The notes below the pieces were generated by a model. It did not search any database, had not been told where the DNA came from, and saw nothing but the letters and a program-made list of their open reading frames with translations. From positions 496,001 to 560,000 of the forward strand of contig NC_013743.1 of the NCBI RefSeq assembly GCF_000025325.1: a DNA stretch of 64,000 nt. The letters run 5' to 3'. The translations under genes were made by a program, and so were the position numbers. The stretch comes from Haloterrigena turkmenica DSM 5511 (GTDB taxonomy: Archaea; Halobacteriota; Halobacteria; Halobacteriales; Natrialbaceae). Below are positions 16,162 to 62,063 of the stretch, in pieces (position 1 is the stretch's first letter; each line of letters starts with the position of its first letter).

Positions 16162-16193
16162 GTTCCACCCCGCAACTATTGAGTGCGAAGCGC

Positions 16194-16267
16194 GGGCCAA
16201 TAGCTCAATTAGGTTGAGCGCCACTCTGATAAGGTGGAGGCTCTCGGTTCAAATCCGAGTTGGCCCA
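16194..16267 (+). tRNA. tRNA-Ile (GAT anticodon)
   Basis: A 74-base cloverleaf. The acceptor GGGCCAA pairs with TTGGCCC, the anticodon arm is CCACT-CTGATAA-GGTGG (anticodon GAT), and the T arm is CTCGG-TTCAAAT-CCGAG. CCA is not encoded. Its last 22 bases plus the next T recur exactly 150 bp downstream. Confidence 0.96.
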
Positions 16268-16417
16268 TTTCTGCTGCGAACAACGTGAACATAGTGAGCG
16301 GTGAGCAACGGAAATACACCTGACTCGGATTTGAACTAGAGAAGCCGCAGCCCGCGTAGCCGAGCGGAGCGAGGCGAGCAGGACCGTCTTCACGTGGTTC
16401 AAATCCGAGTTGGCCCA
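16246..16417 (+). mobile_element. Mini-element behind tRNA-Ile bounded by copies of the tRNA 3' end
   Basis: The last 22 bases of tRNA-Ile (16246-16267) recur exactly at 16396-16417, 150 bp away. The segment between holds an inverted copy of the T arm (ACTCGGATTTGAAC, around 16324) and blocks GCGAACAAC, GTGAGCGG, and CGTCTT just before the second copy. The same blocks lie behind tRNA-Leu at 61926-62063. This looks like an attL/attR pair around a very small, gene-less integrated unit. It could also be a tRNA-tail duplication with another origin. Confidence 0.6.
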
Positions 16418-17180
16418 TACGTTTCCGGTGGACCTCGTTCTGACTCGCAGGAACGTGCGGCGAGGATCTGAGTTCTGAACGGCGCATTCGCGACCGAAGC
16501 GAGTGTAACTGACTCGAGACGGTTCTGATTCGACTTCTTCTCTTCTGTTGTGAACCACGCGAACGGAGTCTCCGTTAGCAACAGCAAGACAACCGATTCG
16601 GGTCGGACCAACACGAGCCGCGGTTCACGAGTGAGCAATGCGAACGAACGGGACCATCTCGAGCCGGGGCAAACACGAGTTGCCACCTGTTCTCGGCAGA
16701 TCACGTCGTGAGCCGAGGAACCGTTTAGCCGTGATCTGAAGAGCGGGAGCCGATACCCACGCGGCTCGCATCACGAGCCGAGAACAGGATCGTCTTCGTG
16801 CCGTCGCCAAAGAGGTGATCTGTAACTGATCGCGGTGGCCGACTCCATATCAGATCGTTACTCTCGATATCCGGGATCGCAAGCTTCGCGCTCGAGCTGA
16901 CTCGAGGCTGTACGGCTCGTCAATTTTCGGGTTCGACTCGACACTAAATGGGAACGCCGAACGCGTACGCGTGAAACGCACACCAAAGATCAGCTGGTGT
17001 GAGCGTTGTTCTATCGTCGATGAGTCGCCGCCGACCGCGGTCGTCAAGATCGTCTCGAAAACGGTCCGTTGTCGCACTCAAGGGCCGAACTAGCTCCGTG
17101 AACGAGCACCTTCGCCGAGCGACGTTCTGAACGGGATTTGTCTGAGACTGAGGTCTCGAGTTATCGGATTAGATCGGATA
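16418..17180. other. Gene-free region with decayed element copies
   Basis: No credible gene is seen. At 16544-16590 the text TTCTGTTGTGAACCACGCGA and GTTAGCAACAG resembles the first third of the mini-element behind tRNA-Ile. Near 16797 GGATCGTCTTCGTG resembles its last block. CCTGTTCTCGG (near 16686) and CCGAGAACAGG (near 16787) form an 11-bp inverted repeat, and CAGATCACG/CGTGATCTG a second one inside it. Confidence 0.4.
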
Positions 17181-61759: not shown

Positions 61760-61863
61760 CGACTCGAGCGGGACTTCCTCGGTCCGCTCGCTCACTCCGT
61801 TCGCTCGCGGTACACATCGAAACGCACATCCCACCGCGCGGACAACGATCGATTGCTTTCTGT

Positions 61864-61947
61864 GCGAGGGTAGCCAAGCAGGCCAACGGCGGTGGGCTTA
61901 AGACCCGCTCCCGTAGGGGTCCTTGGGTTCAAATCCCAACCCTCGCA
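61864..61947 (+). tRNA. tRNA-Leu (TAA anticodon)
   Basis: An 84-base class II tRNA with acceptor GCGAGGG/CCCTCGC, anticodon arm GTGGG-CTTAAGA-CCCGC (anticodon TAA), a variable arm and T arm TTGGG-TTCAAAT-CCCAA. CCA is not encoded. Its last 22 bases plus one recur 115 bp downstream with one change. Confidence 0.95.
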
Positions 61948-62063
61948 TGTCGCCGCGAACACCCCGTGAGCGGCGACTGCGTTCTTGGATTTGAATTACG
62001 CAAGACGCAGCGCGAACGGAGTGAGCGATCGTCTTGCGGTGGTTCGAATCCCAACCCTCGCAT
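61926..62063 (+). mobile_element. Mini-element behind tRNA-Leu bounded by copies of the tRNA 3' end
   Basis: The tRNA 3' end (61926-61948) recurs at 62041-62063 with one base change. Inside are GCGAACACC, GTGAGCGG, an inverted T-arm-like GGATTTGAA, GACGCAGCGC and CGTCTTGCGGT right before the second copy, in the same order as behind tRNA-Ile. A degraded further unit follows to about 62145: GCGAACGC, GGGATTCGAAC, then AACCCTCGC. Confidence 0.6.

Follow-up and report, generated by a model that had tools for sequence, protein, structure and literature searches.

We analysed a 64,000-nt window of the 5.44-Mb genome of Haloterrigena turkmenica (G000:C1:496001-560000). On its forward strand, at 16194-16267, lies a tRNA-Ile(GAT) gene, identified by ARAGORN and Rfam, which is followed by a short structured unit on the same strand. 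Sequence comparison revealed a 23-nt exact direct repeat, GGTTCAAATCCGAGTTGGCCCAT, at 16246-16268 and 16396-16418, with a spacing of 150. The first-pass annotation of this DNA had recognised the repeat and its spacing but had given its length as 22 bases. Positions 54-73 of the tRNA (16248-16267) form the left tail copy, and the same positions recur at 16398-16417 as the right tail copy. The latter had been considered as a possible decayed full tRNA gene; this idea fails, as only positions 52-73 are present and a core sequence common to several tRNA kinds precedes them.

Two hairpins separate the tail copies. The first, H1 (TTTCTGCTGC...GCAACGGAAA, 16268-16314), starts from the T run 3' of the tRNA and was found with an ungapped stem search; a hairpin at the same position was found 3' of other tRNAs. 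The second, H2, occupies 16325-16408 (G000:C1:512325-512408) and is matched by our covariance model R1 with 92.3 bits (E 2.3e-17), although the window H2 is itself one of the 47 sequences used to build that model. Its outer left arm, at 16325-16335, is an exact inverted copy of tRNA-Ile positions 54-64, and this assignment is also backed by covariation that tracks the host tRNA. The inverted T-arm sequence as a whole, ACTCGGATTTGAAC, is exact over 14 nt (16323-16336), bearing out the earlier remark that such a copy lies between the repeats. The H2 core (TAGAGAAGCCGCAGCCCGCG...GCAGGACCGTCTTCACGT, 16337-16395), with an apical GNA-triloop hairpin (GAGCGGAGCGAG), was delimited from alignment A1, pair counts and model R1.

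The list of open reading frames confirms that no gene fits between the two tail copies. The first-pass annotation had also pointed to GFEPR-type peptides on the reverse strand and to the lack of an integrase near the unit, and both points hold: the reverse-strand ORF at 16209-16487 encodes MGQLGFEPR twice, and no integrase lies nearby. Searching 16180-16700 against Rfam 15, we found that only the tRNA reaches a gathering score, and we rejected a known RNA family as an identity for the unit. A weak H2 match on the forward strand at 16598-16678 (E 0.14), together with a 70% tail copy at 16666-16688, marks 16598-16688 as a possible decayed second unit of the same array. The window holds a second unit-bearing tRNA, tRNA-Leu(TAA), which a tRNA search placed at 61863-61948 on the forward strand; an H2 follows it at 61985-62053, also on the forward strand (R1 60.9 bits, E 5.9e-10), and then a copy of the Leu tail.

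With the tRNA-Ile unit as query, we detected similar sequence in the genome after tRNA-Val and tRNA-Glu, and three such stretches in succession behind tRNA-Phe. We located 46 tRNA genes and parsed what follows each of 41 distinct ones. A copy of the gene's own tail is present within 500 nt of 21 of the 41, and in 19 of these cases within 165 nt; the remaining two copies, at tRNA-Gly and tRNA-Asp, lie at ~365 nt, and in both cases the tRNA gene itself is present twice at close range. When each copy was compared with all tails of the genome, the host tRNA was the best or tied-best match for 20 of the 21, and in a control within the same genome 32 of 1148 trials turned up the tail of another tRNA. 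The recurrence of the tail behind its own tRNA is far above chance. The covariance model places the hairpin at 23 sites in the genome at E <= 1, mostly at tRNA loci. A core-like hairpin also occurs away from any tRNA, within another palindrome-rich stretch (L276, G000:C1:3470020-3470089). A different palindrome is seen at tRNA-Arg(GCG) near C1:441995 (L079) and in L103, where the acceptor end rather than the T arm is duplicated and inverted (CGTCCTGAC...GTCAGGACG). Separately, a tyrosine integrase lies in reverse orientation 186 nt behind tRNA-Ala(GGC) (L154, G000:C1:1456702-1457253), forming an ordinary tRNA island; neither H1 nor H2 adjoins this tRNA.

The units share a constant order: tRNA positions 1-73, H1, an inverted copy of the tRNA's own positions 54-64, the core hairpin, and a copy of its own positions 54-73. 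H1 begins with the T run that adjoins the tRNA and has a variable stem and loop motifs such as CGAACAA..CGTGAG. The right tail copy begins at position 53/54 and ends at 73, and is sometimes tandem. The distance between tails is 76-171 nt in nearly all cases, and the units are ~75-170 bp long. The tail copy is exact over 21 nt in 72 of 132 units, and its unpaired part, positions 65-73, is also exact in most of them. In a set of 92 units, host tRNA and inverted arm change together far beyond shuffles at the variable positions 57, 59, 62, 63 and 64; position 64, for example, forms 47 Watson-Crick pairs with the host, compared with 21 in shuffles. Because this signal ends at position 65, we define the inverted arm as the complement of positions 54-64, that is, the T loop and the four bases that open the 3' side of the T stem. 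By eye, we also saw the same kind of one-base T-loop change in several tail copies, at tRNA-Lys, tRNA-Phe and tRNA-Thr (TTCATAATC or TTCACAATC in place of TTCAAATC; L085, L092, L114, L115, L005, L019). Since some copies have decayed, many units may be inactive.

Aligning 47 H2 sequences (A1) yielded a structure of 22 pairs, which we compared with 500 shuffles. In this structure 92.6% of cells are paired, double changes number 130, compared with 35.5 in shuffles, and the covariation score is 0.339, compared with 0.091; none of the 500 shuffles reaches any of the three values, and the pairing signal drops sharply when the structure is slid by one column. Helix 1 varies with the tRNA, while helices 2 and 3, which form the core, vary independently of it. 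Alongside these helices, columns 12-17 and 71-77 are unpaired. The near-invariant parts of the core are AGTCGCAG and GACCGTCT, with a T.T mismatch, and a GNA triloop closed over tandem G.A mismatches is one possible reading of apical modules such as GCGAACGAAGTGAGC. Mismatches are strongly asymmetric between strands: G.A outnumbers T.C by 37 to 3 in the H1 and core stems, and T.T outnumbers A.A by 24 to 2 in the core stems. This asymmetry suggests that the target of selection is the tRNA-sense strand in its folded state, whether single-stranded DNA or RNA, and not a double-stranded cruciform. RNA folding of the window unit gives a z of -2.8, but energy-based folding of this unit by itself misses H2, since the T arm of the tRNA is an equally good pairing partner for the inverted arm. 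Our case for the predicted H2 fold is covariation.

We scanned 84,980 species genomes for the exact pattern and obtained 58 matches, all in Halobacteria; 5 of these are too close to a contig end to judge, leaving 53. In agreement with the earlier expectation that copies begin at a tRNA 3' end and finish in a copy of that same end, 50 of the 53 lie within 400 nt behind a tRNA on the same strand, involving many kinds of tRNA, and nearly all show 0-2 mismatches between the 21-nt copy and that tRNA. The three exceptions are a flipped unit, one that lies 1.8 kb from its tRNA past a mobile-element remnant, and one for which the retrieved sequence contains no tRNA. The covariance model has matches in 41 of 43 genomes of the order, with 1 to at least 18 each, and in none of 204 other genomes of the phylum. 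A search of relatives found related sequence in 41 of 41 genomes, with the tRNA itself being the only match in some of them. Plasmid records gave only three haloarchaeal matches, and phage records matched only at tRNAs. Plasmid CP031304 of Natrinema thermotolerans (L145 2850-3092) carries an apparent tRNA-Glu with an intron-like insert, missed by ARAGORN, and then a full unit. We are highly confident that the units constitute a real, order-wide and tRNA-specific family of structured cassettes. We found no description of such units in the open literature, the part of the literature that our search covered; subscription literature may hold an earlier one.

Related genomes contain both empty and filled sites, as the first-pass annotation had suggested looking for. 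At the tRNA-Ile locus, the site is empty in L056 and L059 and holds a 105-bp unit in L061. The flanks of the empty L056 and the filled L061 align over 199 nt at 84%, starting from the first base past the junction, and the flank behind the 130-bp unit of L058 starts with the same bases. More generally, orthologous tRNAs gain or lose the unit, and loci differ by complete units, inserted precisely at the 3' end of the tRNA. Tandem units behind one tRNA often have different cores, and near-identical cores are found behind different tRNAs in different species, including a 50-nt core that is 94% alike behind tRNA-Ile in G009 and behind tRNA-Gly in G016. H1, by comparison, is more alike behind the same tRNA. 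One unit, behind tRNA-Glu in Halostella pelagica (L180), has a flipped core between its arms; as this is the sole case in ~122, inversion between the arms is at best rare. These comparisons, both of empty with filled sites and of cores, are between species rather than between genomes of one species. On this basis we think it likely that the units arise by insertion, and we infer that they may be mobile.

The core also has a life away from tRNAs. In the Halorubrum-like genomes G108, G140, G120 and G200, the two-hairpin module lies inside an unrelated ~300-bp dispersed repeat, although most copies of this repeat are without it. Where empty repeats read GGTTGCG followed directly by GTCGGGTGGG, filled ones read GGTTGCG, then TTCCCGCGAG...CTTCCAGTG, then GTCGGGTGGG. 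By our reading of the sequence, the module here adjoins TGCGG motifs and has a short GCAC/GTGC arm, which is suggestive of the same principle applied to another target. The repeat (L269-L273, L284-L303) starts with GGTGGCGCGC and ends with GGCTGGGGCTTTGGAGG, is strongly palindromic and has 68-81 matches per genome; it has no Rfam match, and looks like a structured RNA or a mobile element in its own right. In three further loci (L157, L195 and L274), partial tRNA copies, each with an H2, lie 1.6-3.3 kb downstream of a unit-bearing tRNA. In L157 and L195 the 5' part of the tRNA is fused straight to the inverted arm, and L195 contains an integrase fragment; at these three loci, units seem to have been taken up by mobile elements. 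We considered gene-bearing cassettes and rejected them, as what fills the long gaps in L157, L195 and L274 resembles common mobile elements, or tRNA fragments duplicated next to units.

How might such units move? We give no single mechanism an even chance. The account that we favour, at a little short of even, is that the units are non-autonomous, gene-less insertion cassettes whose folded H2 would be a recombination site and which would be moved in trans by a recombinase. Going by sequence features, the folded H2, with its T-arm outer arm, unpaired spacer, inner stem with the T.T mismatch and variable apex, would be the site that the recombinase sees, much as in attC. Strand exchange would take place at G53/T54, so that the host tRNA would keep a full 54-73 tail and the cassette would end in another. 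The enzyme would be encoded elsewhere than near the unit. No excision product, circle or recombinase came to light in these sequence comparisons. T arms are the usual target of haloarchaeal tyrosine recombinases, which makes an enzyme of this kind the likeliest candidate. A weak and limited phmmer search, with queries partly in the wrong reading frames, found no integrase beside the units except the fragment in L195. Simple strand exchange would leave the wrong tail on a tRNA that receives a cassette from another tRNA, so cores common to several tRNA kinds call for an extra step, in which the arms would be re-made to the local T arm by copying or conversion.

Alternatively, the arms may be written from the target at each insertion, in a replication-based spread by target-copying synthesis: the 3' side of the core hairpin would extend along the tail, while its 5' side would snap back and copy positions 54-64. 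A single event of this kind would give both the agreement of tail, inverted arm and host and the sharing of cores between tRNA kinds, and templated copying explains the host-matched arms better than a recombinase acting in trans does. The inverted copy ends at about position 64, which fits, but such a sharp stop needs a reason. The Halorubrum-type module, as we read it, between TGCGG motifs and with its GCAC/GTGC arm, would be consistent with the same process, although its target motifs are themselves repetitive and a duplication there is accordingly not proved. We know of no enzyme that carries out such target-copying synthesis, and overall consider this route rather unlikely. In a more general form, possible but doubtful, the unit would be a mobile hairpin that rewrites its own ends, copying a local sequence S both ways to give S - H1 - inverted S' - core - S; with ends rewritten from the target, one core family could settle at any tRNA gene, and in at least one repeat besides, and would always have the arms of its current host.

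The units could instead work at the RNA level. A structured trailer RNA, read through from the tRNA promoter, might use H1 and H2 in tRNA processing, termination or regulation; the need for helix 1 to pair would then preserve the tail copy together with its complement. That the folded strand is the tRNA-sense strand is in line with this, as are the strong covariation and the folding z-score of the window unit. The excess of G.T over A.C pairs in H1 (11:3) and H2 (47:9) points the same way, but the two are even in the core (13:14) and the H2 excess comes partly from one junction position. The exact copy of the unpaired positions 65-73 is not demanded by pairing, about half of the tRNAs are without a unit, orthologous tRNAs differ in having one, and the module is also found away from tRNAs; moreover, the T run directly 3' of the tRNA means that transcription would have to read through it. 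We judge a trailer RNA unlikely. Less probable still is that each unit is an attR scar, left behind when a virus or plasmid of the ordinary tRNA-integrating kind lost its body by deletion. Such elements normally leave partial tRNA duplications (PMC8371274, PMC9897764), and H2 units do lie at the far end of some larger elements at tRNA-Gly and tRNA-Val. Against this, scanning 2.9 million viral contigs twice gave no H2 match, leading us to reject a viral attP origin; the core is conserved and covaries across the order instead of decaying; unit length is uniform; and the chromosomal integrase by tRNA-Ala(GGC) has neither hairpin next to that tRNA. The least probable source, in our view barely credible, is mobilisation of REP-like hairpins by a Y1 transposase of the IS200/IS605 or RAYT type. 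Irregular hairpins recognised as single strands are a hallmark of these systems, in which haloarchaea are rich, but IS200/IS605-type elements make no target duplication (PMC3119063). Y1_Tnp (PF01797) is absent from G028, G247, G218, G012 and G262, which have 14, 10, 6, 10 and 1 H2, respectively; conversely, G034 and G135 have Y1 without H2, and the Haloterrigena turkmenica genome has a broken Y1 fragment only. The presence of a Y1 transposase does not track the units, and we rejected it as their mobiliser.

The first-pass annotation, which took the locus for a lone small element or a mere attR scar, is partly supported: an insertion at a tRNA 3' end with duplication of that end was the right direction, but its scope was too small for what is an order-wide two-hairpin family. 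In this archaeon about one tRNA gene in two has a structured, tRNA-specific cassette behind it, and such cassettes occur at tRNA genes in nearly every sampled genome of its order; annotation would at best call the units tRNA remnants. They look like an insertion-like mobile family of an undescribed kind. If they are mobile, they would be the smallest tRNA-targeting insertion cassettes known to us, with a folded single-strand site and target-fitted arms, and would suggest that haloarchaea share an unknown recombination activity. If they are RNA elements, they would be an undescribed feature of archaeal tRNA loci. Either reading explains why partial tRNAs occur beside complete ones.

Such partial tRNAs, termed 'tRNA remnants', adjoin complete tRNAs in Haloferax gibbonsii LR2-5, where they are counted as remnants and no unit, hairpin, inverted arm or family is described in the main-text passages concerned (PMC7921747). 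SNJ2-type tRNA-integrating elements (PMC8371274) likewise target the tRNA 3' end, duplicate its tail and leave the tRNA intact; unlike them, the ~100-bp unit has no integrase, genes or cargo, its inverted arm matches the host, and its hairpin core is conserved. The PATEs and SMRs of Haloquadratum are also short, gene-less palindromic mobile repeats, and the mobiliser of SMRs is unknown; in contrast to our units they are not tied to tRNAs and make no target duplication, and PATEs derive from IS605-type elements (PMC3119063). The units differ from MITEs in that their ends have no terminal inverted repeats, and in that the duplication is a tRNA tail and not a sequence-independent stretch of fixed length. 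REP and REPIN sequences with their RAYTs similarly form paired irregular hairpins in intergenic DNA, but to our knowledge show no tRNA anchoring or host-matched arms.

The closest likeness in design is to the attC sites of integrons. H2 resembles attC in its outer arm, unpaired spacer, inner stem and variable apex, in the folding of one strand, in the retention of structure over sequence, and in a junction at G/TT. The R boxes of attC have the consensus RYYYAAC / GTTRRRY, whereas the outer arm of H2 is the host T arm, TTTGAAC / GTTCAAA. Like integron cassettes, archaeal integrons and CALINs (PMC9668308), the units form arrays of small elements between imperfect palindromes, but they have no genes, and their arrays are anchored on a tRNA in place of attI. 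The integron integrase model TIGR02249 finds no protein over its curated cut-off in any of 41 haloarchaeal genomes, so that we rejected this enzyme as the mobiliser. Despite their putatively attC-like way of working, the units stand outside integrons.
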